A stretch of 64,000 nucleotides of DNA from Pontibacter sp. G13. GTDB taxonomy: Bacteria > Bacteroidota > Bacteroidia > J057. This document shows, one piece after another, positions 18,794 to 39,462 of the stretch. Where the stretch lies: assembly GCF_031851795.1 (NCBI RefSeq), contig NZ_CP134696.1, positions 4,112,501 through 4,176,500 of the forward strand, given 5' to 3'. Numbering within the stretch: the stretch's first letter is position 1; every line of letters begins with the position of its first letter. Both the position numbers and the translations under genes were made by a program. The notes beneath the pieces were generated by a model, which searched no databases, was not told where the DNA came from, and saw only the letters and a list, made by a program, of their open reading frames with translations.

Positions 18794-19018
18794 GTGCGGC
18801 TGTATGAGGCGGTGTGAGCTGCTTGCAGGAGTAGTCGGTGGTATTCATGATCCATCTTTGAGGTGGGGGATTCCCTCGTTGAATCTTCCGTTTTGAAGAT
18901 GAGCCCCGATCCACCGACCGAGCTTTGCGAGTCCGGAAAGGAGCGACCCAGCGACCCAAGAATCTAGGAGAGAAATGACATGCTGTACGCTGGGACACAC
19001 CCAAATCGTCCAAAAAAA
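18794..19018 (-). repeat. Dispersed structured repeat, copy A (~225 bp)
   Basis: Matches copy B at 39236-39462 over its whole length, strongly in CCACCGACCGAGC (18911-18923), GCGAGTC, CGACCCAGCGAC (18944-18955) and ACGCTGGGA-AC-CCCAA (from 18987) to the A-run. Two inverted repeats occur in both copies with near-identical spacing: GTCGGTGG (18834-18841) with CCACCGAC (18911-18918), loop 69; and CCCAGCG (18947-18953) with CGCTGGG (18988-18994), loop 34. Read on the minus strand it begins directly at the T-tract of the upstream gene's terminator. Single-base indels shift any reading frame, so conservation is at the DNA or RNA level. Confidence 0.85.
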
Positions 19019-19052
19019 ATGAGACTCGCCCCCATGAAGGAGACGAGTCTCA
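19012..19052 (-). terminator. Rho-independent terminator of the lipoprotein gene at 19074
   Basis: On the minus strand the stem TGAGACTCG/CGAGTCTCA (19044-19052 with 19020-19028) is followed by eight Ts (A-run 19012-19019). The T-tract is also the boundary of repeat copy A. Confidence 0.9.
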
Positions 19053-19073
19053 ATAACTTAAGCGCTAACGGAA

Positions 19074-19502
19074 TTACTCTCCGTCGTGCGTATAGCGAAG
19101 AACGAAATCTCCGAAGTCAGGATCGTTCTCACCAACTTCCAATACACCTTCTTCCAAAGTGATGATTTCGATGGTGGACTCGTCAGCAGTACCTTCATCA
19201 GAGATGATGGCAGTTTCGTCGTCGTTGAATCTCCAAGTACCCTCGGTAGTGCTAGGTACACCGAAGAAGGAAGCAACTGCAACAGAAGAACCGTCTTCGT
19301 TGAAAGTGATGGTGCTACCAGTCAAAAGCGTTTGCAACAAGGCAAGTTGATCAGCAGTCAAAGCGTCTCCAGAAACTGCGTCATATTCCCAAGTAAACTC
19401 GGTGAGGAGCTCAGTGTTGGTTTTTTCCTTGGTACAGCCAGACAAAACGACTGCAAATACGGCTACGATCGCCAGCATCCAGGTTGTGGAAAATCTTTTC
19501 AT
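19074..19502 (-). CDS. Small lipoprotein, lipocalin-like
   Basis: A 142-residue predicted lipoprotein: MKRFSTTWMLAIVAVFAVVL followed by Ser-Gly-Cys, a standard lipobox. The mature part contains FTWEYDAVSG, GSTITFNEDGSSV, EGTWRFNDDETAIISDEG and a late LEEGVLEVGE, the same order of strands as the gene at 18110-18517 (GTWEFNQD..LIM and LEEGVLIFEE). This supports a shared small beta-barrel fold of the lipocalin-like group in Bacteroidota. It has its own terminator (19012-19052). Ligand and role are unknown; exposure at the outer membrane is likely because no Asp follows the Cys. Confidence 0.85.
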   Translation of the reverse strand: MKRFSTTWMLAIVAVFAVVLSGCTKEKTNTELLTEFTWEYDAVSGDALTADQLALLQTLLTGSTITFNEDGSSVAVASFFGVPSTTEGTWRFNDDETAIISDEGTADESTIEIITLEEGVLEVGENDPDFGDFVLRYTHDGE

Positions 19503-19669
19503 TGTCGTGATCTAAATGGTTGAAAAAATCATTAAGTAAAGGAGGGGTTTGGAAAGTTTAACCGATCCAATTTCCCTGTTTAAGTTTGTACGAAAGAGTG
19601 GTCTATCGACAAACTTCCACACAATTAGCATCCAAATAATTGATGAAACAATAATGTCGCAATTTTCGC

Positions 19670-22600
19670 CTATCGTTTCGTCAATTTCTCAACCACAAAA
19701 TTTCCCGATTCGTCTGTCACCTGCAAAAGGTAGGTCCCTTGTGCAAGGTCAAGATTGCTTAAGTTCAACTCATTGATTCCCAGTTTGTAATCGGACTCGA
19801 AGAGCTGTTGTCCAGCCAAGTTGAGGATGCGAAGGGTTCCCGCTCCCTGCAAAGATTCAGGAATCTCCAGTGAAATGCGGTCCACAAACGGATTTGGGTA
19901 CACGTTCATCTGGGTTGAATGAAGAGAAATCCATGCCTCCACGATATGTGAATGCTCAAATGATCCATCGACATCGACAGATCTCAATCGGTATAGGTTC
20001 TGTCCAGTGCTTGGTTGAGTGTCCCAAAAGGAATAAGTCTGTGTATTGTGTGAATTGCCCGCAGCATCTACCTGTCCGATCGCAGTAAATTTCCCTTGAG
20101 GATTGAGTCTTTCGACCTCGAAGAATTGGGAGTTTTGCTCCGAAGCGGTAGCCCAGTTGATCAGCACCTGTTCTCCGACAGTGGAGGCTTCTAGCTCCAA
20201 CAATTCGACTGGAAGTGGTGCGGACCCGGGGTCACCAGTTCCTACTCCCGAGAATCCAGAATTGAAGGTGGCTCGGATGAAATATCCAGAACCGTAGGAG
20301 CCAATTCCGCTGACTCCCTGCTCGATATTGTTGCCATCAGGATAGGGCGTACCGGGGGTGACGTTGGTGATGGAACCGGGATTCTTGACGATTTTGGCAT
20401 TGGAGGTCCATGATTTGCCCGTAGCAGCTTCCCAGCCAGCTACTTCCGCCGCGGTGTAATACAGGGTGTAAGTGATGGAAGCGGTGGCATTGTTGGTGGT
20501 GGGAGTAATCATCAAGGTCTTGTCCATCAACTCGGAAGCGGGGTCCCCAGCGTACCAAAACTCGGAGGTGGAAGAACCAGCACGGTCGATTTGAATCTCG
20601 GTACAGCCAAAATCGTGAGCGCTATTGTTTTCGATTTCAGCAATCAGGTCGCCCGTAGAGCTGTAGAAATGGATGGTTTCGTTGGGACCTAATTCATGCT
20701 CATCGGAAGCGGAGAGGGTGGATTCGATGTCCTCGCTATAATATCCTGTCACGGTGACATTGTCGAATGCCAAGCCTTTGGAAGTACCTCCTCCATCGCC
20801 ATAGTAAAATCCTACCCGAACTTGGGAGAGTCCTACGAAAGAAGACAGGTTGAGGAAGTAGTTTACCCAGTTGACATTGCCAGGTAGGGAGAATGCATTC
20901 CAACTTGCTCCATTGTCGCCGGAGATGATCAAGTAAGCAACCTCCGAGCCTGATGCTTCGAAATACGCATCAAAGTAAATGTAGGCACTGTCGACCTCGG
21001 TCAAATCCATGGGTTTGGTGAAAATCCAATCCGCAGATTTGTCGCAAGCACAATTGTCGTCATTCGTGGCGGCGATGACAGATCCATTGTTTGGGATGGT
21101 GAAGCCGGCACTGGATAGGGCCGCTGCGGAACCTGCTTGGTACATGTCCGAACCAGAAGAGTTTTGGAGCATGGTCCAATCACTAGATATCGCACCGCCT
21201 TCAAAGTCATCGTAGAAGAGGTTGAATTGAGACCCGTAAAATGCCGTCATCTGATCGTCCTTGATCAGTACCACGATGGAGTCCCGCTCACCAATCGAAT
21301 CTGATCCCACCATCACTGTGCTTAGATCCAATACCAAGGTGTCGATGCCTTCCGCAATGCCGTCATCGAAAATTCGAAGGGTCAGATATTGGCTGGCAGC
21401 TGAATTGAACGTCAGCGAAGTGCCGCTTGGGAAATCGTAGTCATCTGAATCGGCCGTAGAATTTCCATTGACCGTGATGTCCACATCGAAATTGGCGCTC
21501 GGTGTTTGGGTAATGGCTACTTCGATTGACACGTCCACATACCCGAGACAATCTCCCGAAGTGCCGGAAGCGCTACTCTCTGAAATGGTCTGAGAAGCAT
21601 TGGCAAACTCTGCAAGTGCACGGCTGTTCAACTGAGCGGTGAACAATCCCCGACCGTGGGTAGCGGCCAAGAAGGTACTATCGGATGCGCGATATTTGAG
21701 CATGTCCACGCGGACATTGGCTAGGCCGTCATTGGTGGGGTCCCAGTCCGTCGAGCCACCATTCAGGTTGGTCGTACTCCATACCCCCAGCTCGGTAGCA
21801 ATCAGCGCGTGATCGTTGTTTTTAGGATTGAAAATCGCCCAACGAACGGGCATATCTGGAAGGTTGCCATTCACGCTGGTCCAAGAGGTTCCGCCATCGG
21901 TGGTCTCCCAAACGTGATCGTAGCCATAATTGCTGATAGTGACCAAGAGGTGATTGTCATCTCCCTCCTCTACCGCGATACAGGAGATATATCCAGTTGG
22001 CAATGCGCCTGCATCGATGACAGTTTCGGTAGGTGTATTGGTATGGGCATCATCAACGCGTATCAAGATTCCGCCAAATCCTCCCATGAATACTCGATTG
22101 GCGGTATTGGGCGAAACGGTAACCGCACTTATTTGCGCAGACCCAAGATTGGTCAAGGCGATATTGGCACCCGTGAGTGTACCTGATTTGATGTTGGTGA
22201 TCCGAGAATAGGAACCGGCCGAGTAAGCGCCATAAAGGATGCCTTGGTCATCGTCGTAATCCGTTGGATTGATGAATCGGCCACTGTTGCTATAGAAATA
22301 TTGGGTATTGGAAGTCCAGCCATTTCTTGAAACCCAGTAGTAATTGTAGATGTAGGCACTGATCTGGACACGGCTATCGTTTTGGTCGATGTGGCAAAAA
22401 CCGCCGTCACCACCAGTAACTCTTGTTGTAGCGTTTATCCCTGAATTGGTGAACAAATGCGTACCGTTGTCCTGAGTTCCGCCCAACAATGAGTCCACGG
22501 GATTCGCGGTGAAGTCCGCCGCATAGAATTGTGTGACATTGTAGCCTTCGTTTTTCTCGGTGAAAGAAGGCGTTGAGCTGGTACCATTTGCTGATCGAGC

Positions 22601-23905
22601 GATCCCGCCATCATTTCCAAAGTAGATCACATTGGAGTTTCCGGGCTCGAATACAATGGCGTGATGGTCAGCATGGACGTAGGGAAATGAGCCTCCAGTC
22701 CAGTCGGAAATCTGCGTGAAGCTGGTTCCTCCGTTCCCCGACACCATCAGATCGATTCCCCCGATGAACAATCTGTCAGGATCGTTGGGATCTACCGCAG
22801 CAGTGAGGTCGTACCAAGCTTGTCCCCCTGCAAAATTTGAGCCTCCTGAGACATTCGGATTGGAGACAGCGGTCCAAAGGCCACCTGCATTGGAGGTGCT
22901 GTAAATCCCCAGACATCCGTTGGTGGAAGTATCGTGGAACAATGCATAAACTCGGTTTGCATCACTTGGTGCTACCGCCAATTCGATCCGAGCATAGCTT
23001 GAGGTAGGAAGACCAGAAGTCAATTTGGAGAATGACGCACCGCCATTCGTGGATTTATAAATGCCATCCAAGTCGAACAACCCCATTGTCACGTAGATGT
23101 CCCCATTCGCTGCAATCTCGATATCGGCAGCTCGATCGGTCGCAGAGGCAGGGGAAGTAACCATTCCCAATACCTGCGTCCATGAACCGCCATGATCGGA
23201 AGATCTCATGATGCCATCGTCTCTTGTCGCTGCGAATACATCTCCGTTGTCAGCAACCACAATTTTTTGGACGTAGTTGAATGGAAACCCATTGGTGCTT
23301 GGGAGCTGTGCCCAAGTGGCTCCACCATCCAATGTGCGCCAGATCCCCAATCCTCGTACTGCATCTGAGTTGAAGAAACCTTCTCCGGTACCGAAATACA
23401 TCGTGTCAGGCTGATTGGGGTTTTGGGCGATGGTGGTGATCGCCATATTCTCGAAAAATGGATCGATGGAATTCCACGTCGGATTGGCATCAGAAATGTT
23501 GGAACATGTCCACAAACCTCCTGCAACGCTACCCGCCCACAGGGTTTCGTAGGTATTGTCATTGAGGTCCACCAGGATTGCACGAGTACGGCCACCGACG
23601 TTATTGGGGCCGCGTTCATTCCAATTGATGCCGGAGATGGCTGTCCGGGTATGGGCCTGTTGTTTTCGGACCATGTATTCCCGAGCGGCGATGAGTCTTT
23701 CCCGTGGGGCATAGCCAAGGGACGGGTCAGCAGTCATTTCGAGTTCTTGCTCAATTGCAAGATCGATTCGCTCGAATTTGGACAGTTTGGGTGGGGGAGA
23801 TGAGGAAGGGAATTGTGTGGAGAATACAATCAAGCCAATAGCGCATAGACCGATCATCCATCCAAATCCACGGAGATTCAGTGGACTTTTCCGAAGGTTT
23901 CTCAT
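19670..23905 (-). CDS. Giant secreted VPS10/BNR propeller protein with type IX secretion tail
   Basis: A 1411-residue exported protein. From ATG 23905 an N-terminal hydrophobic segment follows MRNLRKSPLNLRG. A two-part propeller (about residues 60-770) carries Asp-box motifs such as RTLDGGATW, RSSDHGGSW, KSTNGGASF and TTDGGTSW, ending at ATHGRGLFTAQL. A Calx-beta-like domain follows (DSDDYDFPSGTSLTF, DGIAEGIDTLVLDLS), then a jelly-roll MAM/choice-of-anchor-like domain (FEGGAISSDW to FDNVTV), further sandwich modules, and a C-terminal VYPNPFVDRISLEI to GTYLLQV domain that marks type A T9SS cargo. The in-frame TTG at 23947 is a less likely start. It is the tandem paralogue of the gene at 24116. 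The propeller suggests binding to protein or glycan; catalysis is not evident. Confidence 0.88.
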   Translation of the reverse strand: MRNLRKSPLNLRGFGWMIGLCAIGLIVFSTQFPSSSPPPKLSKFERIDLAIEQELEMTADPSLGYAPRERLIAAREYMVRKQQAHTRTAISGINWNERGPNNVGGRTRAILVDLNDNTYETLWAGSVAGGLWTCSNISDANPTWNSIDPFFENMAITTIAQNPNQPDTMYFGTGEGFFNSDAVRGLGIWRTLDGGATWAQLPSTNGFPFNYVQKIVVADNGDVFAATRDDGIMRSSDHGGSWTQVLGMVTSPASATDRAADIEIAANGDIYVTMGLFDLDGIYKSTNGGASFSKLTSGLPTSSYARIELAVAPSDANRVYALFHDTSTNGCLGIYSTSNAGGLWTAVSNPNVSGGSNFAGGQAWYDLTAAVDPNDPDRLFIGGIDLMVSGNGGTSFTQISDWTGGSFPYVHADHHAIVFEPGNSNVIYFGNDGGIARSANGTSSTPSFTEKNEGYNVTQFYAADFTANPVDSLLGGTQDNGTHLFTNSGINATTRVTGGDGGFCHIDQNDSRVQISAYIYNYYWVSRNGWTSNTQYFYSNSGRFINPTDYDDDQGILYGAYSAGSYSRITNIKSGTLTGANIALTNLGSAQISAVTVSPNTANRVFMGGFGGILIRVDDAHTNTPTETVIDAGALPTGYISCIAVEEGDDNHLLVTISNYGYDHVWETTDGGTSWTSVNGNLPDMPVRWAIFNPKNNDHALIATELGVWSTTNLNGGSTDWDPTNDGLANVRVDMLKYRASDSTFLAATHGRGLFTAQLNSRALAEFANASQTISESSASGTSGDCLGYVDVSIEVAITQTPSANFDVDITVNGNSTADSDDYDFPSGTSLTFNSAASQYLTLRIFDDGIAEGIDTLVLDLSTVMVGSDSIGERDSIVVLIKDDQMTAFYGSQFNLFYDDFEGGAISSDWTMLQNSSGSDMYQAGSAAALSSAGFTIPNNGSVIAATNDDNCACDKSADWIFTKPMDLTEVDSAYIYFDAYFEASGSEVAYLIISGDNGASWNAFSLPGNVNWVNYFLNLSSFVGLSQVRVGFYYGDGGGTSKGLAFDNVTVTGYYSEDIESTLSASDEHELGPNETIHFYSSTGDLIAEIENNSAHDFGCTEIQIDRAGSSTSEFWYAGDPASELMDKTLMITPTTNNATASITYTLYYTAAEVAGWEAATGKSWTSNAKIVKNPGSITNVTPGTPYPDGNNIEQGVSGIGSYGSGYFIRATFNSGFSGVGTGDPGSAPLPVELLELEASTVGEQVLINWATASEQNSQFFEVERLNPQGKFTAIGQVDAAGNSHNTQTYSFWDTQPSTGQNLYRLRSVDVDGSFEHSHIVEAWISLHSTQMNVYPNPFVDRISLEIPESLQGAGTLRILNLAGQQLFESDYKLGINELNLSNLDLAQGTYLLQVTDESGNFVVEKLTKR

Positions 23906-24050
23906 GAAGAATGGGTGAAGCAAATAGGGAAAAGAGGGGTGTTTCAATGGTAGGCAATCACAAGGTGAGCATTTTTACCTAAAATGTGAAAATAAGGAGA
24001 TTTCGAAGGGAAATGGTATCCTGAGACGTGGCTTTTTTTTCAATTCCCAC

Positions 24051-24095
24051 AAAAAAACAGCCATTGGGAAATTCGGATGAATCCCAATGGCTGTT
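24051..24095 (-). terminator. Rho-independent terminator of the upstream propeller gene
   Basis: On the minus strand a perfect 13 bp stem (ACAGCCATTGGGA 24057-24069, complement 24082-24094) is followed by seven Ts (A-run 24051-24057). It lies 20 bp after the stop at 24116, so the two giant paralogues are separate transcription units. Confidence 0.92.
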
Positions 24096-24115
24096 CATTA
24101 TCTGCCAGATACTTT

Positions 24116-27100
24116 CTATTCCTTCATGATCTTTTGAACGCTGGAACTCCCATCCGGCAATTCCAAGGCAAGCAGATATATCCCCTGTGCCAGACCAAGC
24201 GGTCGAAGGTCGAGTTGGCTCTTGGGAAGTGTGGTATGCCCAGTGGACAATACTTGTCCTTTCAGATCCAGCAAACGGTAGGAAACTTCTCCCTTCCATC
24301 CACCTGCTGACGTCAATTGGATATGAGTCTGACAAGGATTCGGAAAAACAGACACTTCCCATTCGCTTACTTCCCACTGAATGCTGACGATATTCGACAA
24401 GGTACTTGCACCGTCGAGATCGACCATGTTGATCCGGTAATAATTGGTCCCCGCTACGGGGTTGGGGTCCAAAAATTCGTAAGTCAATGAACTCGAAGAA
24501 TGACCAGCAGCCAATAGATCGCCGATTTTTCGGAAGATCTCCCCATTGTGTGAACGCTCGATTTCAAAATGCGAACTACTCTGCTCCCATTCTGTCACCC
24601 ATTCCAATCCGGCTCCTTTGTCTCGATATTCCACTTCCAAATGTGTCAGCGAAATAGGCAGGCTAGATGGATTCGGCCCTGGGTCGCCCGCTCCAAATCC
24701 CGAGAACCCAGTAGTAAAATAGGCTTCTATCAAGTACCCGGTTCCAAAGGTTGAATAGGTTGGCGTTTTGGCCTCGATGGTATTTCCATTGGGAAATGGA
24801 GTCGTGGGAGTGACCTGACTGATGGCCCCTCCATTTTTGACAATTTTGGCGTCTTGCGCCCAAATCAATCCTGTATAGCTTTCCCAGTTATTGACCTCAT
24901 CAGCGGTATAGTAGAATCTCACGGTCAAAGCTCCGGTCGGATTATTCACATCAGGCGTAATCATGAAAGTCTTGCCCGCAAGTTCTGTCTGAGGATTGCT
25001 TTGGTACCAAAAAGGCTGTGGCGATCCTGCACGGTCGATGAGTACGGTAGTACAGCCGTAGTCGTGGCTGCTTTCATTGATCAGGGTCGCCATCAATTCT
25101 CCCGAAGCGGTATAATAACTCACCGTATCGTGCGGCCCCAGTTCATGGGTGTCTTCATCCAAAAAGTCATCGGCAATGTAGTCGGGGCCATTCGCAGTCA
25201 GAAGGATATTGTCAATAGCCATCCCCGTAGCCTGAGCGCCCCCGTCTTGATAGAGGAAGGCGATTTTGAGATTCGCATTTCCAGAATAGGCCGTCAGATC
25301 TATGCTGTAGGGCTGCCATTCTGGGTCGGAAGTCAAAGCGTAATTGGTCCAAGTGCTTCCCCCATTGTCTGATATTCTGGCGTAGGCTTGTCCGCCTCCC
25401 GAAAAGAATCCATCAAATGTCAGATAGGCATTCTCGAAATCTGAGAGATCTATCGTCGGACTGGTCAATTGATCAGCGCCTTTATCACAATTGCAATTGT
25501 CATCATTGGTTGCTGCTACCTGCCCTGCTCGTGGAAATATGGTCCATCCTGCACTACTTTGGGTTGCGGTGCTGCCCACTTGAAATAGATCTGAACCAGT
25601 GGATTGCTGTGTTTGGACCCAATCACTGGGAATACCCCCGCCTTCGAAATCGAGGTCAATAAGAGTCGTGAAGATATCCCGATCCTTGGGCGAATGATCA
25701 TCCAACAGCGTGACTGTACACGTGATCAAGTTCCCCACCGAGTCCGTTCCATTCCCAGGCGAACTCAAGGAGAGATCGAGGGTCTCCGGTCCTTCGTGGA
25801 TTCCATCGGCATATACCTTGATAGGAATGACAATGCTGCTGGCATTGGTGAATGTGTCTAGCAGCCCGTTGGGGAATTCGTAATCATCGGGGCTGGCCGT
25901 AGAAGTCGTTTCAATGGTAATGGCAATTGGAAGATCACTGACAGGGGCTCCCGAGATCGTGATTTCCAAATCGTAGGTGGTATATCCTCGACAGTCGCCA
26001 TCAGTTCCGCTGCTGATTCCTTCAGAAGCGAATTTCGCTGCTTGGGCAAATTGGGCATAGGCAACGGGTTCAAAGCGAGCAGAATAAAGCCCCCGCCCAT
26101 GTGTGGCAGCCAAAAACGTGGTGTCGGATTCTCTAAATTGGATCATATCAATGCGGACATTTCCCAATCCATCATTGGTAGGCGTCCAATCGGTGGAGGA
26201 ACCATTGAGGAATCGAGTGGTCCAAACACCAATCTCTGTGGCCAAGATCGCTTGATCTGAAAGGAATGGATGAAACATCGCCCAGCGGATAGGCATGTCA
26301 GGCAGGTTCCCTTCGACGTTGGTCCAAGTGGTGCCACCATTTTGGGTTTCCCAGACACTCACGATGCCATAATTACTGAAGGTAACCAACATGTGGTCGT
26401 CGTCTCCTTCTTCGATCGCCATGCACGAAATGTATGCATTGGGCAGGCTGTTGCCCGGATCGAGGTCTGTGCCGCTTGGGGTATTGGTATCCGCTTGATC
26501 AATCCGTACAACGGTGCCGTCACCAGTTCCTGCAAAGATCCGGTGGGCTGTGTTGGGCGATACTGTAACTGCTGAGATTTGCTCGCTATTGAGTTCGGCA
26601 ACAGGTCTGCTGATCCCTGAGATCGTCCCCGAACTGATATTCTCAATTCGGGCGTAATAGCCATCCGAGTAGGCAGCATACAGGATATCGGTATCGGAAT
26701 CGTAATCCGTGGGATTGATGAAACGCCCTTGGGCTGAGCTTGCACTATAATTAAAGCTGGTGTAGGAATCCCAGCCATCTCTCGTAATGCGATATTGGTT
26801 GTAGACGTACGAGCTGATCTGTACATCTGCATCGTCTTGGTCTATGTGGCAAAATCCTCCATCTCCGCCTGTCACTTCCTGCGTGGCGTTGATACCGGCG
26901 TTGATGTAGAGCTGAGTCCCGTTGTCCTGAGAGCCCGCGATAAACGAATCCGCAGGATGCGAAGGCATGGCACAGGAATAATATTGGGTGACATTGTATC
27001 CTGCGTTTCGATTGGCAAAGGTCGGCGTAGAGGCAGCTCCATTTGCGGAGCGGTAAATTCCTCCGTCGTTGGCAACATACAGGACATTGGAATTGCCTGG

Positions 27101-28351
27101 CTCGAAGAGGATTACATGTTGATCCGCATGTACATACTGCCAGATGATCCCCGAGGAATTGGAGACTTGATAGAAGCTACTGGCGGCATTGGTACTGATC
27201 ATCAAGTCGATTCCGCCGATCAATACGCGGTTGGCATTGTTGGGGTCTACCGCGATCTCCAGATTGTACCATGCCTGAGTGCTGGTGAAACTCGACAACC
27301 CAAAAGAGGAAGGATTGGAGACATATCCCCAGTTGGTGCCATTGTTGATGGATCGATAGATGCCCAAGCATTCGTTGTTGTTACTGCTGTGAAGCAAGGC
27401 ATAGATCCGGTTGGGATTGGAAGGGGCACTGGCCAATTCCACCCGATAGAATCCAGTGTTCGGAAGTCCCGTGGTCAATTGGGCAAAGGTCGCTCCACCA
27501 TCTACAGACCGGAATATCTGCCCTTGGGTGAATATCCCCATGGAAACGAAAATGTCTCCATCGGAGGCAATCTCTATATCACATGCACGATCTGTGGAGG
27601 AAACCGTGGTGCCTGTTTGTCCTAGCACTTCTGTCCAAGTCGTTCCTTGATCTGTGGATCTTTGAAGCCCTCCATTTCTGGTCAGTGCGAATAGAGAACC
27701 ATTTGCATCCACGGCTACCTTTTGGATAAACTGGAAGTTGGTGGAGGTCGTGGAAGGGAGCTGGGTCCAGGTATTCCCTCCATCAAAGCTTCGCCAAATT
27801 CCCATGCCTTGGATGGCATCTATATTGAAATATCCCTCTCCAGTCCCAAAATACATGGTATCGGGATGGGTGGGATCTTGGGCAATCGAGGTGACTGCCA
27901 AGTTGGCGAAGAAATCATTGATTGGGGTCCAAGTAGGGGTTGGGTCGGAAATATTGGTGCATTTCCAAAGACCACCGCCAACAGATCCTGCCCAGAGAGT
28001 CTCATGGGTACCATCATTGGCATCGACCAAGAGGGCACGTGTACGACCACCGACATTGTTGGGGCCGCGTTCCTGCCATTCGAAGCCGGCAATAGCGCTA
28101 CGGGTATCTTGTTTGGACCGAATGCGATCTGCGATAGCCGCCGATTCGATCAGCTTGCTGCGGGGAACAATTCCGGTCGCAGGGTCTCGGGTCATTTCAT
28201 ACTCCTGTCTGATGGCCAGATCTATCCGGTCATATTTGGAATATTTAACCCATGCCTCTGATTGGGGCCAGAGCATGATTGCGAGGCCCAATAGTGCGAC
28301 ACTGGAAACGAGAGCAAGTAAAATGCGAGAATCACCAAATTTGGGTTTCAT
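24116..28351 (-). CDS. Giant secreted VPS10/BNR propeller protein with type IX secretion tail (paralogue)
   Basis: A 1411-residue protein with the same architecture as the gene at 19670. After an N-terminal hydrophobic anchor or signal come KYDRIDLAIRQEYEMTRDP (parallel to KFERIDLAIEQELEMTADP in its neighbour), a propeller with RSFDGGNTW, RSTDQGTTW, RSVDGGATF and TQNGGTTW Asp boxes, ATHGRGLYSARF, a Calx-beta-like domain, a jelly-roll domain (FEGGGIPSDW to IDNILLT) and a C-terminal sorting domain starting VSVFPNPCQTHIQL. Long stretches are identical or conservatively changed, for example GGDGGFCHIDQ and RFINPTDYD, so the pair arose by tandem duplication followed by marked divergence. Function is unknown; surface attachment or release by T9SS is expected from the tail. 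Confidence 0.88.
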   Translation of the reverse strand: MKPKFGDSRILLALVSSVALLGLAIMLWPQSEAWVKYSKYDRIDLAIRQEYEMTRDPATGIVPRSKLIESAAIADRIRSKQDTRSAIAGFEWQERGPNNVGGRTRALLVDANDGTHETLWAGSVGGGLWKCTNISDPTPTWTPINDFFANLAVTSIAQDPTHPDTMYFGTGEGYFNIDAIQGMGIWRSFDGGNTWTQLPSTTSTNFQFIQKVAVDANGSLFALTRNGGLQRSTDQGTTWTEVLGQTGTTVSSTDRACDIEIASDGDIFVSMGIFTQGQIFRSVDGGATFAQLTTGLPNTGFYRVELASAPSNPNRIYALLHSSNNNECLGIYRSINNGTNWGYVSNPSSFGLSSFTSTQAWYNLEIAVDPNNANRVLIGGIDLMISTNAASSFYQVSNSSGIIWQYVHADQHVILFEPGNSNVLYVANDGGIYRSANGAASTPTFANRNAGYNVTQYYSCAMPSHPADSFIAGSQDNGTQLYINAGINATQEVTGGDGGFCHIDQDDADVQISSYVYNQYRITRDGWDSYTSFNYSASSAQGRFINPTDYDSDTDILYAAYSDGYYARIENISSGTISGISRPVAELNSEQISAVTVSPNTAHRIFAGTGDGTVVRIDQADTNTPSGTDLDPGNSLPNAYISCMAIEEGDDDHMLVTFSNYGIVSVWETQNGGTTWTNVEGNLPDMPIRWAMFHPFLSDQAILATEIGVWTTRFLNGSSTDWTPTNDGLGNVRIDMIQFRESDTTFLAATHGRGLYSARFEPVAYAQFAQAAKFASEGISSGTDGDCRGYTTYDLEITISGAPVSDLPIAITIETTSTASPDDYEFPNGLLDTFTNASSIVIPIKVYADGIHEGPETLDLSLSSPGNGTDSVGNLITCTVTLLDDHSPKDRDIFTTLIDLDFEGGGIPSDWVQTQQSTGSDLFQVGSTATQSSAGWTIFPRAGQVAATNDDNCNCDKGADQLTSPTIDLSDFENAYLTFDGFFSGGGQAYARISDNGGSTWTNYALTSDPEWQPYSIDLTAYSGNANLKIAFLYQDGGAQATGMAIDNILLTANGPDYIADDFLDEDTHELGPHDTVSYYTASGELMATLINESSHDYGCTTVLIDRAGSPQPFWYQSNPQTELAGKTFMITPDVNNPTGALTVRFYYTADEVNNWESYTGLIWAQDAKIVKNGGAISQVTPTTPFPNGNTIEAKTPTYSTFGTGYLIEAYFTTGFSGFGAGDPGPNPSSLPISLTHLEVEYRDKGAGLEWVTEWEQSSSHFEIERSHNGEIFRKIGDLLAAGHSSSSLTYEFLDPNPVAGTNYYRINMVDLDGASTLSNIVSIQWEVSEWEVSVFPNPCQTHIQLTSAGGWKGEVSYRLLDLKGQVLSTGHTTLPKSQLDLRPLGLAQGIYLLALELPDGSSSVQKIMKE

Positions 28352-30422: not shown

Positions 30423-30443
30423 AACTGTTGGTTTTTTTGAGAC

Positions 30444-32770: not shown

Positions 32771-32776
32771 ATTAGC

Positions 32777-32904
32777 AGTTGAATGCAGCATATACACATG
32801 CCCGCCTTCAATTGCATCGACCTTCAGTAGTCCTGAAGTTCTTGTACCTAGTTATCGCTAACTGAAACGGAGACACAGATAATGACATCTGTGTCTTATT
32901 TTTT
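32777..32904 (+). ncRNA. Candidate small RNA or attenuator leader, about 128 nt
   Basis: Interval between the promoter and the intrinsic terminator. Hairpins in order: CTTCAG/CTGAAG (32822-32827, 32833-32838), AGTTA/TAACT around a TCGC loop (32850-32863), and the terminator stem AGACACAGAT/ATCTGTGTCT (32871-32896). A weaker pairing, TTGAA/TTCAA, may close the 5' part. It shows no SRP, 6S, tmRNA or tRNA signature that I recognise. It is either a free-standing small RNA or the leader of the DUF1572-VOC gene, whose ATG is 22 bases after the T-tract. Confidence 0.55.
32871..32902 (+). terminator. Rho-independent terminator 24 bp before the DUF1572-VOC gene
   Basis: Perfect 10 bp stem AGACACAGAT (32871-32880) and ATCTGTGTCT (32887-32896) with a 6 nt loop, followed by TATTTTTT. 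It points on the plus strand although no plus-strand protein gene lies upstream before 29 kb. Confidence 0.88.
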
Positions 32905-32925
32905 GCCCAAAATCCTTCCTTCGAA

Positions 32926-33873
32926 ATGCCTTTCGAACACTCCCCAATCCTCCAAAGCATCGCCCAGCAATGCCATCGGTATGAAGCTATGGGCACCGCG
33001 GCCATTCTCGCAGTGAAGTCCTCTGAAGTTGCCTTTCAACCAGATCCTAGCTGCAATAGTCTCGGAACCTTGGTGAAGCACATGCACGGGAATATGCGTT
33101 CGCGATTTGTGAACTTCATGCAGGAAGATGGGGAAAAAGATTGGCGAGAGCGAGATGACGAGTTTGTGAATTCCTTCGAAACTCAAGAGGAGCTACTGAA
33201 GGCCTGGGAAGAAGCTTGGAAGGTGTTTTGGGACGCCGTGGAACCATTTTCTGATACAGATTTGGACCGTGTGGTTTACATTCGTTCAGAGCCGCATTCC
33301 ATCCTCCATGCCCTCCATCGACACATGGCCCACAATGCCTATCACGTCGGGCAGATGATCTATCTCGCCAAAATGCTTCGAAAAGAGGAGTGGAAATCCC
33401 TCTCCATTCCCGTAGGCAAATCCGAGGAATTCACCCAGAAGAAACGCGCGGAAGCCAAACGGGCACTCGCTGAGGGAGATCTTCGTCCGGATCTGGACCT
33501 GAACCAGATCACCTTGCCTTCAAGGGATCTGGCCAAGTCCGTGGAATTCTATGAGCATTTAGGGGCGATTCTGATTGTGGATAGCCTTCCCAGATATGCT
33601 CGATTTTGGGTACCCAACGGAGGTACCACCTTTTCCCTTCATCATGTGGAGGAGCCGCTTCACGATCCGCGAACGGTGATCTACTTCGAATGTAGAGATG
33701 TGGATGCGCAGGTGGAAAGGCTCAAATCACTCGGGATGGAATTCCTGTCTGACCCTACGGACGAGCGATGGCTCTGGAGAGAAGCACGGCTGAAAGATCC
33801 TGACGGACATGAAATCTGCTTGTATCATGCAGGAGTCAATCGGGTCAATCCTCCTTGGAAGGTTCAGCCTTGA
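32926..33873 (+). CDS. DUF1572 (DinB-like) and VOC/glyoxalase fusion protein
   Basis: A 315-residue cytosolic fusion. Residues 1-160 match DUF1572 of the DinB four-helix superfamily: NSLGTLVKHMHGNMRSRFVN, EDGEKDWRERDDEF, HRHMAHNAYHVGQMIYLAK and WKSLSIPVGKSEEF. The His residues in KHMHGN and in AHNAYHVGQ are the presumed metal ligands. Residues about 187-305 form one VOC (glyoxalase/bleomycin resistance) module: LNQITLPSRDLAKSVEFYEH, then FSLHHVEEP and LKDPDGHEICLYHAG. DinB-like enzymes often act as thiol transferases and VOC domains as metal-dependent lyases or binding proteins, so thiol-linked detoxification is a guess. The short junction (about 165-185) is charged, as in a linker. Its end overlaps the convergent cyclase gene by 10 bp. 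Confidence 0.88.
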   Translation: MPFEHSPILQSIAQQCHRYEAMGTAAILAVKSSEVAFQPDPSCNSLGTLVKHMHGNMRSRFVNFMQEDGEKDWRERDDEFVNSFETQEELLKAWEEAWKVFWDAVEPFSDTDLDRVVYIRSEPHSILHALHRHMAHNAYHVGQMIYLAKMLRKEEWKSLSIPVGKSEEFTQKKRAEAKRALAEGDLRPDLDLNQITLPSRDLAKSVEFYEHLGAILIVDSLPRYARFWVPNGGTTFSLHHVEEPLHDPRTVIYFECRDVDAQVERLKSLGMEFLSDPTDERWLWREARLKDPDGHEICLYHAGVNRVNPPWKVQP

Positions 33874-34691
33874 TCTACCCGCTCTGTCAGTCGAAACAAT
33901 CTCGGACGACTTGGAGCTGCATCAGAAACGAATGGTGCGATTTGCAAATCGAGGAGATACCTTCCATCCTCGATATCATCAGCGACATAAATCATCTCGG
34001 TGATGGTGCGATCAATTCCGTCTGACTCTGAGACATTATTGGAGCCTTGTGGTACGCCCCAGAAGATGTGGTGGATAGACAGCTTGCCTTCGTCGAAAAG
34101 CCTGTCTACGGAAGGCATGTCGACCAAAAGATGTGTGACATTCCAGCTTCGGATCAATTTCATGGCTTCCCAGGAGAAGAATGGGGGAGGGGTTTTCATG
34201 TAATCGCGGCTGCGTTTGGAAGGATCATTGGGGGTGGTTCGGATCACCAATGCTTCCAGGAATTCAGGATGGCCATTTGGCAGGGCTTCTTGAAGACTCG
34301 CCACATCGATCACCATGTCCTGTGGTGCCAATGGGGGATCGTAGGAATCTCGGCTTGCTTCGGCTGGTGTGGGATTGACGGTGATTAGGGTCGAGGGAAT
34401 AAAACTTGGACCTAGCGAAGAATGAACGGGAATCCGTGCTTCAGCTATGTGACCAATGCATTCTGTATGGGTGCCGTTGCAATGCGGGGTAAACTGGTAG
34501 GTTTCAAAATTGCAGCTTCCTCCTCTCCTGACATCTCCGACAAATCCTCCGCCTTCGAATGCTTCCGAAACTGCCTGAGGAACGCCATACGTGTTGGGTT
34601 GAGGGCCATTGAAAATGAGCGGAATGCTGATATCCAGTGGATTGAGGGCTACTGAATAAGTGGTGCCATCAAGTCTGAGGTCCAATTCCAT
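33864..34691 (-). CDS. Cyclase-family hydrolase (kynurenine formamidase-like)
   Basis: A 275-residue metal-dependent amidohydrolase-like protein of the cyclase family (PF04199). The metal-binding motif is present as PHCNGTHTECIGHI, a form of HxGTHxDxPxH in which Asp is replaced by Glu. Further family strings are ALVIRTT, NVTHLLVDMPSVDRLFDEGK and LSIHHIFWGVPQ. Members include arylformamidase of the kynurenine pathway and isatin hydrolase; the substrate here is unclear and no kynurenine pathway genes are adjacent. ATG 34691 opens MELDLRLDGTTYSVALNPLD; an in-frame ATG at 34721 is also possible. It overlaps the end of the DUF1572-VOC gene on the other strand. Confidence 0.85.
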   Translation of the reverse strand: MELDLRLDGTTYSVALNPLDISIPLIFNGPQPNTYGVPQAVSEAFEGGGFVGDVRRGGSCNFETYQFTPHCNGTHTECIGHIAEARIPVHSSLGPSFIPSTLITVNPTPAEASRDSYDPPLAPQDMVIDVASLQEALPNGHPEFLEALVIRTTPNDPSKRSRDYMKTPPPFFSWEAMKLIRSWNVTHLLVDMPSVDRLFDEGKLSIHHIFWGVPQGSNNVSESDGIDRTITEMIYVADDIEDGRYLLDLQIAPFVSDAAPSRPRLFRLTERVDQG

Positions 34692-34743
34692 GATCTGCGA
34701 ATAGATAAGGTAAATCTCCAAAATAGGGCTAAATGGCCGACTA

Positions 34744-36393
34744 TCAAGGGATCATGTGAAATTCTACGCGCCGATTTTGCGCCCTTCCTTCCTCTTCCTG
34801 ATTGGACGCCACAGGACGGTTGTTGCCGAATCCCATGTAGGTCAGACGGTTGGGAGAGATTCCTACTGCGATCAAATAAGCTCTCACCATGCGGGCCCGC
34901 TTCTCAGACAATTCTAGATTCTCTCCAGAATTTCCAAGTCGGTCGGTATGGCCATGAATCGCGATTCGCAATTCAGGATTTGATTTCAGAAGCTCTGCCA
35001 ATCGATCGATTTCACGATGGGCTTCCTCGTCGGCTTTGATGCTGCCTGAAGTGTAGTAGATCGTGGTGATGAGCGTTTCTGACTCAGCGGGTTTTTCGTA
35101 TGCCGATCCTGAACCTGGAAGGATCGGTGCATTTTCATCTCCCGGACGAAGTCGTACCTCTAGGGGATAGATCATGCCGTTGGATGCTCGTGTCAGATCG
35201 AGTTCAGCAGATCCCGGTTGGTGCCCTTGAGCTCTCGCGATGAGAAGGTAGGAACCTCCAGCAGGGAGGGAGAATTTGAAAGAGCCATCAGATACACTCG
35301 AAGTATCCCGAACGAGCACCGCCATAGAAGGCAACGATTGGCAGGTCAAACCTGCAAACAAGGGCGTTTCGGTCTCGGAATTGATCACCTTTCCCTCTAC
35401 ATGTACCATGGGCCCTCGGAATCTAGCGGTAGAATTCGCAACAGATTCCTCTGGAGCCTCAAGCGTAATTCTGACCAGATCTGTTTCCCCCATTGATTGG
35501 TATTCAGAAGCAAGGAACGCATATTTCTCATCGGAGGTCATGACGAAGTTGGCTTCGAGTCCAGGGCTATTCACCTTGGAGCCCAGATTCTCTGGAGTAG
35601 ACCAGTAGGCCCAACTTTCATCCAATCTCACAGATCGGTAGATATCTTCCTCGCCTAGCCCGCCGGGTCGGTTGCTGTTAAAATAGAGGGTGCGATTGTC
35701 AGCCGCGATAAATGGACCTGATTCGTTATATGCGGTATTGATGTCGGGTCCAAGTGGTACCGGAGCTGTCCAAGTATCGTTGTCTTCCCGAAAGCTCACA
35801 TAGAGATCGTTGGAATTGTCATTGGGAATTTCGGAGAAATACATCACCAATACCTGCAGATCCGGCGAAAGTGTACCGGCCAAATAGGTGCCTTTGACCA
35901 TCTCCTTGAGCCCTTCGATCTGAAGTTTTTGGGGCGCTCCCCAGCCTTCCTCTGTTCGTTCTCTAATGGAAAAAGCCCGCTGCTCAAAATAGCCGTCTTC
36001 AGAAGCCCCTCGCACGAGCATCCATTGCCCGTCTGGTGAAATCCCGCAAATCAGATTGCTCTGCTCTTGGTTGAATCCTCCAGAGAGGTGCTGTGCCAAT
36101 CCCCATTCATTGGCCTCTGGGTCCCATACGGACATCCACGTATCCTCGGAGCCGTGCTGCCCAAAGGTATTGTCGGGATGATTGATCCGAGAAAAGTAAA
36201 GCCGTTGCCCGTCCGGTGTAGGGATGGGGTAATATTCTTCGGAGGGCGAATTGATGTGGTCACCCAGATGTTGAATCTGTGCAAATGCCTGACAGGAAAT
36301 CAAGCAGAGAACTCCCGTTAGAAGCCTCAAAAGATGGGAAGCAGATCCTAGTTGGGTCGTCCAATGTGAGGATCTGAATGTATTGGAAAGCAT
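34744..36393 (-). CDS. OmpA-family protein with PD40 propeller
   Basis: A 549-residue exported protein. From ATG 36393 a signal peptide ends near ISCQAFAQ. WD40-like (PD40) blades follow with PTPDGQRLYFSR, GISPDGQWMLVRG, GTLSPDLQVLVMYF, TLYFNSNRPGGLGEEDIY and TSDEKYAFLAS, then a carboxypeptidase-regulatory-like domain (VEGKVINSETETPLFAG). The OmpA peptidoglycan-binding domain is at the end: IHGHTDRLGNSGENLELSEK, MGFGNNRPVASN and RAQNRRVEF. It should anchor an outer membrane assembly to peptidoglycan, as similar proteins do in T9SS bacteria. In-frame codons up to 36600 lack signal character and are excluded. Confidence 0.9.
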   Translation of the reverse strand: MLSNTFRSSHWTTQLGSASHLLRLLTGVLCLISCQAFAQIQHLGDHINSPSEEYYPIPTPDGQRLYFSRINHPDNTFGQHGSEDTWMSVWDPEANEWGLAQHLSGGFNQEQSNLICGISPDGQWMLVRGASEDGYFEQRAFSIRERTEEGWGAPQKLQIEGLKEMVKGTYLAGTLSPDLQVLVMYFSEIPNDNSNDLYVSFREDNDTWTAPVPLGPDINTAYNESGPFIAADNRTLYFNSNRPGGLGEEDIYRSVRLDESWAYWSTPENLGSKVNSPGLEANFVMTSDEKYAFLASEYQSMGETDLVRITLEAPEESVANSTARFRGPMVHVEGKVINSETETPLFAGLTCQSLPSMAVLVRDTSSVSDGSFKFSLPAGGSYLLIARAQGHQPGSAELDLTRASNGMIYPLEVRLRPGDENAPILPGSGSAYEKPAESETLITTIYYTSGSIKADEEAHREIDRLAELLKSNPELRIAIHGHTDRLGNSGENLELSEKRARMVRAYLIAVGISPNRLTYMGFGNNRPVASNQEEEGRAQNRRVEFHMIP

Positions 36394-36712
36394 ATCGGTA
36401 GTGCGCTTGCTGCAAACCCCAGAAACCTTAGGCTGAGGGGTAGAGTGAAGAGGTTGATAATGAACCGAAAGGTCCGTCAATTGTGTGATGGATAAATTAA
36501 GATTAATCGAATAAATATAAGAAGCCAATCTAGGGTATTTATTTCGGTCAGTTTTTCTTGGATTTATGGGGGAAGTGGAAATCATAACAAGGGGTTCCAA
36601 TCTAGGTCGAAGTACTCAATATTATGTCAATTACGGCATTGCTCCCTACTCCTTTTCCTGATTTCCGTTAATTTTACGCATCCAGTCAACTTTTTCATAC
36701 TCAAAATCCGAT
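36394..36712. other. 319 bp divergent intergenic region
   Basis: Lies between the OmpA-family start (minus) and the MBL start (plus). AT-rich around 36480-36560. Only imperfect promoter boxes are visible, for example TATATTTA on the minus strand near 36515. No gene or strong hairpin seen. Confidence 0.5.
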
Positions 36713-37369
36713 ATGCTCAACATCAAGCTGTTCACCTTCAATCCCTTCATGGAGAATACCTACATCCTGATCGACGAGACGCAAGAAGCCGTCATCATCG
36801 ACCCGGGGTGCCACAATTCTCAGGAAAAGGCGATGCTCAAGGAATATATCGAATCTCAAGGACTCAAGGTGGTGGCGCTGCTCAATACCCACGGGCATAT
36901 TGACCACATGTTCGGCAATGCTTGGGTCAAGTCAACCTTCGATGTTCCATTTGTCACGCACCAAGGCGTGATTCAGGAGCTCCGCGCTTCCGAGCAATAC
37001 GGACCAGCCATGTGGGGGATCAATCCAGATATCAGCCCTGATCCAGATCGACTGGTTGACGATGGCGATACCTTCACATTTGGCAATACCACGCTCGAAG
37101 TGCTGTTTACGCCAGGCCATAGCCCCGGGCATATCAGTTTCTTCCACCGTGAGTCTGGGCAATTGTTTTCTGGTGATGTGCTATTTGAGCGGAGTATCGG
37201 AAGAGTTGACCTTCCGGGTGGCTCGATGGATATCCTGATGGATTCCATTCTCAACAAGCTTCTTCCGCTCGGGGACGATGTGACGGTTTATCCCGGTCAC
37301 GGTGGCCCTACCACTTTGGGAGAAGAACGCGCCGCGAACCCATTTATCCTTCAATATCTCAATTCATGA
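36713..37369 (+). CDS. MBL-fold metallo-hydrolase, glyoxalase II-like
   Basis: A 218-residue cytosolic zinc hydrolase of the metallo-beta-lactamase fold, of the YcbL/GloB-like type. Metal motif THGHIDHMFGN (HxHxDH) is near residue 63; later ligands lie in FTPGHSPGHISFF, SGDVLFERSIGRVDLPGG and YPGHGGPTTLGEE. Length and the short C-terminus fit single-domain YcbL-like hydrolases rather than full glyoxalase II, which adds a helical domain. Substrates in the family are thioesters such as lactoyl-thiols. The stop overlaps the next start by ATGA, so the lipoprotein gene that follows is translationally coupled. Confidence 0.92.
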   Translation: MLNIKLFTFNPFMENTYILIDETQEAVIIDPGCHNSQEKAMLKEYIESQGLKVVALLNTHGHIDHMFGNAWVKSTFDVPFVTHQGVIQELRASEQYGPAMWGINPDISPDPDRLVDDGDTFTFGNTTLEVLFTPGHSPGHISFFHRESGQLFSGDVLFERSIGRVDLPGGSMDILMDSILNKLLPLGDDVTVYPGHGGPTTLGEERAANPFILQYLNS

Positions 37370-38094
37370 ATGTCTCGAACGTTAGAGCCGCATGGGTGGC
37401 CTGTCTGATGCTAAGCGTGTGGTCCTGCCAGTCCTCCTCCTCGGAGGCTCCTCAGGAATCAGTTCCGATCGTGAGGGAAGCTGCTGATACCAACTGGCAA
37501 CTGGACATCAAAACCACCAAAATGGAAAGCCCTGACCATGTCTGTGTGGTGGAGGAAAGCTACCCGAAGGTGAGTGGAATGGCTGATGCTGCGAAGGAAA
37601 AGGCAATCAATAAACTGCTCAAACCTAGCAATCGCAGATTGAGGATGGAGTTGATGGGTGAATGCCTTGCGCAACTGGACGGCTTGGTCTATGAAGAACC
37701 CGCTCGGGTAGGACGGACTTTTGAGGTGGTCGAATCCCCTGAATCCATCTTGTCGGTTGCATTTACCTACCACGATTTCTATCCCAATCGGAAGGATTCT
37801 GTGCGGATTTTTCGTGCTGTCAATATAGATATGAGTCGTGGGGAAATGATTCGGTTTGCAGATTGCTTTCAGCCGACGCTCCAGCAGGAATGGGACCAGA
37901 TCACCCCAAAAGGAACATCGTCCTTTGATCTGATGCCAAAGGACGATGCGTTTGTGATTGGTCGAGATTCCGTGTATTTCTATGGTGAAGAAACAGAAGC
38001 CGCAGGGCACACTGGAGGAATCTATGTTCAGGCGATTTCGCTTGAAGCTCTAAATCCCTACCTCAAGGAGACTGGGCCCCTTGTCAACCGCTAG
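37366..38094 (+). CDS. DUF3298/RsiV-like lipoprotein
   Basis: A 242-residue predicted lipoprotein: MNVSNVRAAWVACLMLSVWS followed by Cys. The mature part shows the PdaC/RsiV-like arrangement: ESYPKVSGMADAAKEKAINK near the start, then SVAFTYHDFYPNRKDSVRIF and FRAVNIDMSRGEMIRFADCF, and a C-terminal strand (DAFVIGRDSVYFYGEE). It starts inside the stop of the MBL gene (4 bp overlap) and its own stop overlaps the convergent flippase-like gene by 4 bp. The role is unknown; periplasmic face of the outer membrane is likely. Confidence 0.75.
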   Translation: MNVSNVRAAWVACLMLSVWSCQSSSSEAPQESVPIVREAADTNWQLDIKTTKMESPDHVCVVEESYPKVSGMADAAKEKAINKLLKPSNRRLRMELMGECLAQLDGLVYEEPARVGRTFEVVESPESILSVAFTYHDFYPNRKDSVRIFRAVNIDMSRGEMIRFADCFQPTLQQEWDQITPKGTSSFDLMPKDDAFVIGRDSVYFYGEETEAAGHTGGIYVQAISLEALNPYLKETGPLVNR

Positions 38095-39158
38095 GAGGCT
38101 GATTGCTGCGGATTTACGGTTTCATTGGCCTCGGAAGATTTGGGTTCCTTGGCCATCAGGAACATGTACCCAACCAGTCCTGCCAAAAGCAACATCACCA
38201 TCTGCGCAGAGTGCAAGAGCAGGGCAAATGATTGACCCAGCTCTTGACTTGCCTCAACTGTTGGCAAGACCACTAAAGTGGTAAATGTCAGGATGATGGC
38301 CTGATGATAGGATCCTACCCCACCTGGAATCGGCAGCGCCATGCCAATTCCCCCAATGACTGTAGTAATCAAGGCTAAATATGGCCAGTTGTAGGAGGTC
38401 TCTTCGAAGCCCGGCATGCTGAAGAAGGCCACATAGGTCATCAGCCAGTAGCATACCCAAATCGAAATCGTGTACACCACATATAGCCAAGGCTTATCGA
38501 TGTCCTTGATGCTGAGGGTGGATTTCAGCAATTGGGAAATGAATGCCCATATCTCTCTGAAGAAAGGGATAGCTAGGAGCTTGTTGCGAAGTATGTAGAT
38601 GGCACCGAGCCCGAGTAATCCGATCCCAACCAATGAGCCAAGAATAAGCGGAATATTGATGGAATCAGCTGATTTGCCCATGAGTCCCAAGACAGAGCTT
38701 GCCAATACCTCAGTCAAGGTGTCAGCCTCCAGCGAAAATGCCAAGAAGATCAAACCCAACAGGATGATCGCATCAATGGCCCGCTCAATGACGACTGTTC
38801 CCAATGAAGTAGCCACCGGAATACGGTCTGTTTTGTAGACTGCGGTACATCTTGCGACCTCTCCTGCTCTCGGGAGGGCCATATTCACGAGATATGTGAC
38901 CATGGTCGCTGCGAATGTATTGCCATAAGGAATGGAGTGGCCGGCAGCTGTGAGCTGCATATTCCATCTCACAGATCGGAGAAAGTGGCTGAGCAACCCG
39001 ATGGAGATGGAGGCAATCAACCATCCATAATGCGCATTGGCGAGATCTCCCTTGAGTTTTTCGATGGAAGTATCCTGAAACGCAAAGTACATGAGGGCAA
39101 CGCCTAGGCCAATTCCGCCTAAGTACTTCAGGATACTGACAAGCTTCTCTTTGTTCAT
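38091..39158 (-). CDS. Flippase-like integral membrane protein (LPG synthase TM / UPF0104 family)
   Basis: A 355-residue polytopic protein with about eight helices and no soluble catalytic domain. Family features seen: a short basic N-terminus before LGGIGLGVALMYFAFQ, SHFLRSVRWNMQLTAAGH, VTYLVNMALPRAGEVARCTA (the conserved N-x-x-L-P-R-x-G-E motif), VVIERAIDAIILL, and GGIGMALPIPGGVGSYHQAI. In this superfamily (MprF N-terminal domain, AglD2) such proteins move or synthesise amino-acylated or glycosylated lipids. The substrate here is unknown. Repeat copy B lies 78 bp upstream of its start. Confidence 0.88.
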   Translation of the reverse strand: MNKEKLVSILKYLGGIGLGVALMYFAFQDTSIEKLKGDLANAHYGWLIASISIGLLSHFLRSVRWNMQLTAAGHSIPYGNTFAATMVTYLVNMALPRAGEVARCTAVYKTDRIPVATSLGTVVIERAIDAIILLGLIFLAFSLEADTLTEVLASSVLGLMGKSADSINIPLILGSLVGIGLLGLGAIYILRNKLLAIPFFREIWAFISQLLKSTLSIKDIDKPWLYVVYTISIWVCYWLMTYVAFFSMPGFEETSYNWPYLALITTVIGGIGMALPIPGGVGSYHQAIILTFTTLVVLPTVEASQELGQSFALLLHSAQMVMLLLAGLVGYMFLMAKEPKSSEANETVNPQQSAS

Positions 39159-39235
39159 GGATCGGGTTGAGTTCAGTGGCTAAAGATCGTATTTGCGAAT
39201 CAAGTTTTTAGGCTGATCAGGCGCAATGCTTCCAA

Positions 39236-39462
39236 GTGCGGCTGGTTGGTGCGGCGTAAGGTGCCTGGAAGATTCAGTCGGTGGAGGAGGTGTACATGAG
39301 ATTGATGGTACCCTCGATCCAAGACTAGGTTCAAGTTCCATGCAGGCTTTCAGTCCACCGACCGAGCGCCAGCGAGTCAGGAAGGGACCGACCCAGCGAC
39401 AATCGTGTCCAGGAGGCACTTTGAGCCAAGCACGCTGGGATACGCCCAAGTCATCCAAAAAA
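39236..39462 (-). repeat. Dispersed structured repeat, copy B (~227 bp)
   Basis: Second copy of the element at 18794-19018. The conserved stems are GTCGGTGG (39277-39284) with CCACCGAC (39355-39362), loop 70, and CCCAGCG (39392-39398) with CGCTGGG (39433-39439), loop 34. As in copy A, its minus-strand start coincides with the T-tract of an intrinsic terminator (here panD) and it precedes a minus-strand gene (here the flippase-like one). The middle part (39285-39354) is more divergent than the flanks. Confidence 0.85.

Follow-up and report, generated by a model that had tools for sequence, protein, structure and literature searches.

A folded, interspersed DNA element of Pontibacter sp. G13, probably mobile and non-autonomous, with relatives in many Bacteroidota

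What kind of sequence occurs twice on the minus strand of a 64-kb window of the Pontibacter sp. G13 genome (contig NZ_CP134696.1, positions 4,112,501 to 4,176,500; the window is this whole stretch of 64,000 nucleotides)? The original prediction, made from the letters alone, had placed homologous copies at 18794-19018 (copy A) and 39236-39462 (copy B). Their homology is borne out by blastn (73% identity over 112 positions, E 7e-12, and 75.5% over 49 positions, E 0.003), as are the two inverted repeats described in each copy, with loops of 69/70 and 34/34 nt, and the frame beginning MDDLGVSQR that both contain. Within the window, GTCGCTGGG and GGTCGGTGG are each present at A and B only. We consider it probable (about 0.6) that A and B are two of some 350 copies of an interspersed, non-autonomous mobile DNA element found in many Bacteroidota.

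The full-genome search that had been proposed, with blastn and a covariance model, revealed a family of several hundred copies in the host genome (7.67 Mb, three contigs). Copy B gave 65 blastn matches, and a covariance model trained on the first 99 nt (5' side) of 67 copies was significant for all 150 of the candidates scored, out of 1,717, with a worst E value of 8.7e-13. The core GGGCGTNNCCCNGCG has 247 exact matches in the genome and its backwards-read control has none; because this core was found in 124 of 178 inspectable copies, the 247 matches correspond to an estimated ~355 copies genome-wide or, at a mean of 203 bp, ~0.9% of the genome. Among the fetched loci, which are skewed towards good matches, 176 of 178 distinct copies have a recognisable 3' end. 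Another contig, of 92.9 kb and perhaps a plasmid, carries two of the copies (G000:C3:7062-7162 and 81591-81690).

The copies share ends and an order of parts. Element length ranges from 158 to 253 bp (median 198, 176 copies), with peaks near 170, 190 and 220. Logos of 161 copies read GGAKGATTTGGG at the 5' end and GCCAKCCGCAC at the 3' end, and outside both ends conservation drops, save for a weak upstream G/T bias. The ends form a closing stem, P0, in which a 5' GGCGTR pairs with a 3' YACGCC; the original prediction had overlooked this stem, whose arms lie ~180 nt apart in A and B. P0 encloses the hairpin P1, which follows it directly (CCCNGCG with CGCNGGG, loop ~34 nt), a brief stretch of conserved sequence, and the hairpin P3, which is variable: its forms include the GTCGGTGG type seen in A and B as well as long palindromes. 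In loci L185-L214, the distal arms of P3 appear by eye wholly unlike between related species, often still palindromic, and the copy at L116 (G000:C1 near 4996031) carries an insertion of ~22 bp between P1 and P3. The features of the two copies in the window are as follows.

18794..19007, minus strand: element copy A, 5' GATTTGGGTG ... 3' CAGCCGCAC (ends set by logos and by duplicate pairs at other genomic sites)
18996..19001, minus strand: copy A closing stem P0, 5' arm GGTGTG (covariation)
18988..18994, minus strand: copy A stem P1, 5' arm CCCAGCG (covariation)
18954..18987, minus strand: copy A P1 loop, the fast-changing region in the family (recent-pair comparison)
18947..18953, minus strand: copy A stem P1, 3' arm CGCTGGG (covariation)
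18911..18918, minus strand: copy A hairpin P3, 5' arm GTCGGTGG (sequence)
18834..18841, minus strand: copy A hairpin P3, 3' arm CCACCGAC (sequence)
18811..18816, minus strand: copy A closing stem P0, 3' arm CACACC (covariation)
39236..39452, minus strand: element copy B, 5' GACTTGGGCG ... 3' CAGCCGCAC (alignment, covariation)
39441..39446, minus strand: copy B closing stem P0, 5' arm GGCGTA (covariation)
39433..39439, minus strand: copy B stem P1, 5' arm CCCAGCG (sequence)
39392..39398, minus strand: copy B stem P1, 3' arm CGCTGGG (sequence)
39355..39362, minus strand: copy B hairpin P3, 5' arm GTCGGTGG (sequence)
39277..39284, minus strand: copy B hairpin P3, 3' arm CCACCGAC (sequence)
39253..39258, minus strand: copy B closing stem P0, 3' arm TACGCC (covariation)

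The family is apparently non-coding. No reading frame is free of stops in more than 74 of the 176 copies, the six frames being open in 49, 45, 74, 23, 38 and 32 copies against 32, 30, 32, 20, 21 and 21 after shuffling (31.6 expected for the most open frame), and in 146 of 176 copies one or more frames are free of stops. As every frame is more open than the shuffled expectation, a short protein, though unlikely, is conceivable.

Covariation of the stems, the other check that had been proposed, is marked in both P0 and P1 and is made almost solely of Watson-Crick pairs. With the two element ends aligned separately, P0 comprised 1,042 Watson-Crick cells, 1 G.T, 4 mismatches and 9 gaps, and P1 comprised 1,228, 1, 12 and 5, respectively; of the 2,288 ungapped cells of the two stems together, 2,270 are Watson-Crick, 2 are G.T and 16 are mismatches. 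The middle pair of P1 alone is A-T in 42 copies, G-C in 92, C-G in 34, T-A in 6 and mismatched in 4. In the 67-copy alignment, four of the five measures put P1 above every one of the 500 shuffles, 4 of 500 reached it on the fifth, and none of the slid controls came near its covariation. P3, positioned by its best pairing in 125 of the 174 copies tried, pairs more loosely (806 Watson-Crick, 23 G.T, 59 A.C and 112 other).

Conserved, covarying stems are also what a structured RNA element in messenger RNAs would display, such as a 3' end stabiliser, a processing site or a terminator, and the positions of copies downstream of genes, with T-tracts upstream of some of them, would suit such a role. 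Repeats of the Correia and ERIC types have effects on transcripts elsewhere among bacteria (PMC10969869). Against an RNA stands the composition of the stems, where the 2 G.T cells fall below the 16 mismatches. G.T pairs rarer than mismatches are unexpected for an RNA. Nor do the copies prefer a strand: in spaces between co-directional genes, 27 lie in sense and 26 in antisense, and across the genome 92 run with and 84 against the leading strand (p 0.60, with the origin set near 3.7 Mb from the skew of the sampled loci only). Rfam gave no match up to E 5 in 8 loci, and none at the gathering score in the window. The non-Watson-Crick cells of P0 and P1 are 10 A.C, 2 G.T and 6 of other kinds; since A.C on the strand as read is G.T on the other, the opposite strand may be the one that folds, for which the excess of A.C gives a weak hint (p 0.04). 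Taken together, the near-absence of G.T, the balance of sense and antisense and that of the replication strands favour an element that acts at the DNA level, and we regard a messenger RNA element as quite improbable.

Duplicate pairs define the ends of the element and show where it changes. In the pair at 5758597 and 5765708, the match runs from TTGGGCG to CCGCAC between unrelated flanks; in that at 6086637 and 6107004, it starts at TTTGGGCG and runs on at the 3' side into another repeat. Among 160 copies with exact P1 arms, seven recent pairs (one redundant pair omitted) differed at 55 of 246 positions of the P1 loop versus 38 of 963 positions elsewhere (odds ratio 7), although one pair, 6232893/4754370, lacks the fast P1 loop. 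Either the rest of the element is constrained or the P1 loop mutates faster. The loop as a guide to the insertion site was not supported: its match to the flanks in 66 copies gave p values of 0.06, 0.99, 0.74 and 0.87 for the four combinations of flank and strand, with no strong signal in a fixed register. Inverted repeats in the flanks were likewise not significant (p 0.44).

Placement in the genome is uneven. Using genes called by codon usage, and setting aside 45 of the 176 copies with no called gene on one side, we found 112 element-bearing intergenic spaces, of which 62 are convergent, 44 co-directional and 6 divergent, whereas 44 element-free spaces of at least 150 bp in the same loci divide into 3, 25 and 16. 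Thus, convergent spaces are enriched (62/112 vs 3/44, p 6e-9) and divergent ones depleted (6/112 vs 16/44, p 3e-6). The 49 copies that sit singly in convergent spaces lie a median of 76 bp from either gene end, and 5 copies overlap a called open reading frame (ORF) by more than 100 bp. Neighbouring copies within 1.5 kb are mostly arranged tail-to-tail, with their 3' ends facing (21 of 24 pairs, the other 3 being head-to-head; p 2e-10); with copies lacking a 3' end included, the figure is 20 of 24 within 1.2 kb and one tandem pair appears.

The original prediction had both copies begin at the T-tract of the preceding gene's terminator. These T-tracts are real at A and B, but they do not typify the family: a run of five T within 28 nt upstream occurs in 27 of 176 copies (15%), above the ~3% of 26-mers in the window, and strict intrinsic terminators were found near 6 of 176 copies against 3 of 176 after shuffling, such that terminator targeting as a rule is not supported. 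What the copies clearly favour are spaces flanked by convergent genes.

Such a preference could also mean that the element does its work where it sits, as a functional DNA site between convergent genes, for example, a cruciform or protein-binding site that manages supercoiling there, which spread long ago and is now kept by selection site by site. For REPs, binding by gyrase is reported (PMC6006769), and constraint of this kind would agree with recent duplicates differing mostly in the P1 loop. Convergent enrichment is, on the other hand, also expected if selection removes insertions elsewhere, and no binding protein is known.

Orthologous sites bear on this alternative, and we compared two of them in the Flavobacterium-like genus that includes genome G273. 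The first lies between a 146-aa gene and a 153-aa gene, read by eye as crtZ and SRPBCC, respectively, neither of which Pfam confirms. The first of these genes is present in 110 of 121 genomes, and the 30 loci fetched comprised, by eye, 19 with the element, 4 with a decayed element, 4 with a gap of 4-10 bp and 3 in which a long insert looks like a further gene. A script kept 18 of the 19, dropping L188, which has mismatches; in these 18 copies, 93.5% of 108 P0 cells are paired and 7 cells have changed on both sides. None of 500 shuffles reached the observed values on three of five measures, whereas 27 and 492 did so on the other two. The second site lies upstream of an amino acid permease gene (Pfam AA_permease_2), found in 37 of 61 genomes; P0 is readable in 10 of the 30 loci fetched, with 49 Watson-Crick and 1 G.T of 50 cells and four fully paired variants, and five further loci look by eye like remnants. 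At both sites, the end patterns admit no more than certain letters at variable positions, so some mismatches would escape these counts.

Thus, P0 variants with compensatory changes occur at the same site across species, in line with selection in place, yet the sites are also lost, and independent re-insertion at the same spot is possible. Other species have nothing, or a decayed copy, at these very sites, so none of them is essential on its own, and two of the five measures at the first locus are unremarkable. We therefore hold a site that functions in place, with no further movement, to be unlikely.

If the element moves, a candidate for its mover is a Y1 transposase of the RAYT kind, making this a REP/REPIN family, or else a derivative of an IS200/IS605-type single-stranded DNA transposon. 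The inverted dimers and the extragenic, convergent placement are REP-like by the descriptions in PMC3733652 and PMC3116915, and atypical secondary structures are reported to flank subclass 2.6 genes in Bacteroidetes (PMC6006769). Yet neither of the host's two Y1 genes (0/2) has an element within 1.5 kb on either side, and the weaker of the two is flanked, by eye, by a different palindrome. In 10 other genomes with 41 Y1 matches, 1 of 30 fetched Y1 loci lay near an element, other transposase families not having been searched; at this single locus (L219/L156), the repeats surrounding the Y1 gene are of other kinds, and two further Y1 loci showed a weak 5' pattern match only. A link between the element and Y1/RAYT transposases was sought and not found at the Y1 loci examined. 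The replication-strand bias of IS200/IS605-type elements is also absent (92:84), and the end logos contain no GTAG or CGTC foot. A RAYT-driven family is disfavoured for the Y1 genes seen, and a Y1 enzyme acting in trans from elsewhere is possible; overall, we judge this origin to be very unlikely.

The Y1 gene at L122 of the host genome (G000:C1:5488564-5488794; Pfam Y1_Tnp, 29.4 bits) is RAYT-like and has several copies of a palindrome of its own beside it, CGCGGACTTCCGGACCG ... AGTCCGCG, seemingly a separate REP-like family.

Several known repeat systems share features with the element. BOX elements resemble it as modular structured repeats with a variable inner part. Integron attC boxes have the forms RYYYAAC at 5' and GTTRRRY at 3', which, by eye, the ends of the element (GGGCGTR at 5' and YACGCC at 3') do not match. 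Correia/NEMIS repeats and other miniature inverted-repeat transposable elements (MITEs) are similarly short, abundant and complementary at their ends. MITEs usually carry target duplications, whereas none was found for the element, and in copy B the 3' arm of P0 stops 17 nt short of the 3' end. MITEs derive from parental insertion sequences, according to PMC10969869 and PMC9769881. ERIC is likewise a structured intergenic repeat of widely variable copy number (PMC10969869, PMC2267715), but it is 127 bp long, is predicted to form a single long stem-loop and is known from enterobacteria and vibrios, whereas the element has inner hairpins inside a closing stem; the two are set apart here by description, not by sequence.

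REPs and REPINs come closest, as high-copy extragenic palindromic units with close inverted neighbours, located downstream of or between convergent genes (PMC3733652, PMC3116915), and the element shares with them inverted dimers in extragenic space. A REP, by definition, is a 20-40 bp palindrome with an unpaired GTAG or CGTC foot (PMC3733652). The element differs in its length of 158-253 bp, in the closing stem and the hairpins within it, in ending in GGAKGATTTGGG and CCGCAC without such a foot, and in having no link to the Y1 genes examined. It thus departs from REPs in size, foot and transposase. We treat it as a new family of folded, interspersed DNA. The original prediction had recognised no known family, in agreement with the Rfam negatives and with the literature: the family is not described in the passages available from open-licence sources, including PMC6006769, PMC2267715, PMC3733652, PMC9769881, PMC12306157, PMC3116915 and PMC10969869, and may be described elsewhere.

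How far does the family extend beyond this host? A covariance model (R1) run on 392 genomes of the phylum, with 10 candidates scored per genome, found one other genome, and a pattern search was used instead. The generic pattern occurs in 20 of the 392 Bacteroidota genomes, host included (11 of 179 genera), and the reversed-pattern control has no match among those listed. The matches listed in element orientation have their parts in the same order and most end in CCCTMACGC; two in genome G127 look like chance coding matches. A scan of genome contigs gave at least 120 loci, with a matching 3' end in 27 of 120 and many chance matches outside Bacteroidota; 17 of the 27 fall among 80 named loci, 16 being named as Bacteroidota and 1 coming from an assembly labelled Spirochaetes. 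Named contigs with a matching 3' end include those of Flavobacterium, Hyunsoonleella, Segetibacter, Lacihabitans, Saprospiraceae and Bacteroidales. Viral contigs had a matching 3' end in 3 of 120 loci, at least 1 of them probably by chance, and a stricter script retained 15 of the 240 genome and viral loci. The generic copy in the Spirochaetes-labelled assembly (L283) may reflect transfer or a binning error.

We consider the element most likely to be non-autonomous mobile DNA that works like REPINs. Of the interpretations first offered, that of a structured, REP-like, non-autonomous unit is upheld by the several hundred copies, the covarying stems, the near-identical copies that share their ends amid unrelated flanks and the inverted dimers, while targeting of terminators as a rule falls away and a structured RNA is disfavoured by the scarcity of G.T and the lack of orientation bias. 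An enzyme supplied in trans would recognise the folded or cruciform DNA of the element and copy it to new places, and insertions would be tolerated where neither a promoter nor a gene is hit. Pairing of the stems may be kept by selection for mobility or function; alternatively, one arm may serve as the template for correcting the other, with equally exact pairing as the outcome.

Several observations weigh against mobility. Movement is deduced from the copies, none having been observed. The flanks bear no sign of a target-site duplication (longest match 4.20 vs 4.16 permuted, p 0.25, 161 copies), and no clean empty site was found, the 60 relatives searched including no genome of the same genus. 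Neither copy B nor a Flavobacterium-like copy matched annotated plasmids, and the latter matched no phages. The Y1 loci of other genomes, as given above, offer no companion transposase, and at some orthologous sites the copy has been retained across many species, for which neutral mobile DNA would have no need.

More tentatively, and with considerable doubt, the family could be a phylum-wide class of DNA recognised as a folded junction without an RNA stage, moved by an enzyme of a kind hitherto unconnected with interspersed repeats and serving also as a structural site of the host between convergent genes, its stems held exactly complementary as DNA throughout the history of Bacteroidota.

As for the surroundings of the two copies, the genes on either side of B encode an aspartate decarboxylase and a protein with an LPG-synthase membrane domain (Pfam), and the two ORFs flanking A have no Pfam match. 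Elsewhere in the window, two adjacent large proteins (19670-23947 and 24116-28351) have Sortilin-Vps10 matches and C-terminal sorting domains, the sorting-domain match of the second falling under the Pfam cut-off.

If our reading is correct, Bacteroidota possess a family of folded repeats that is theirs alone and parallels REP and ERIC in other bacteria, but lacks the transposase known for REPs, and the spread of repeats without a dedicated transposase becomes testable. With a stop-free frame in 146 of 176 copies and covarying stems, these elements can mislead both gene calling and RNA searches. Their nearly pure Watson-Crick covariation makes them a clear candidate for structure that is kept at the DNA level.

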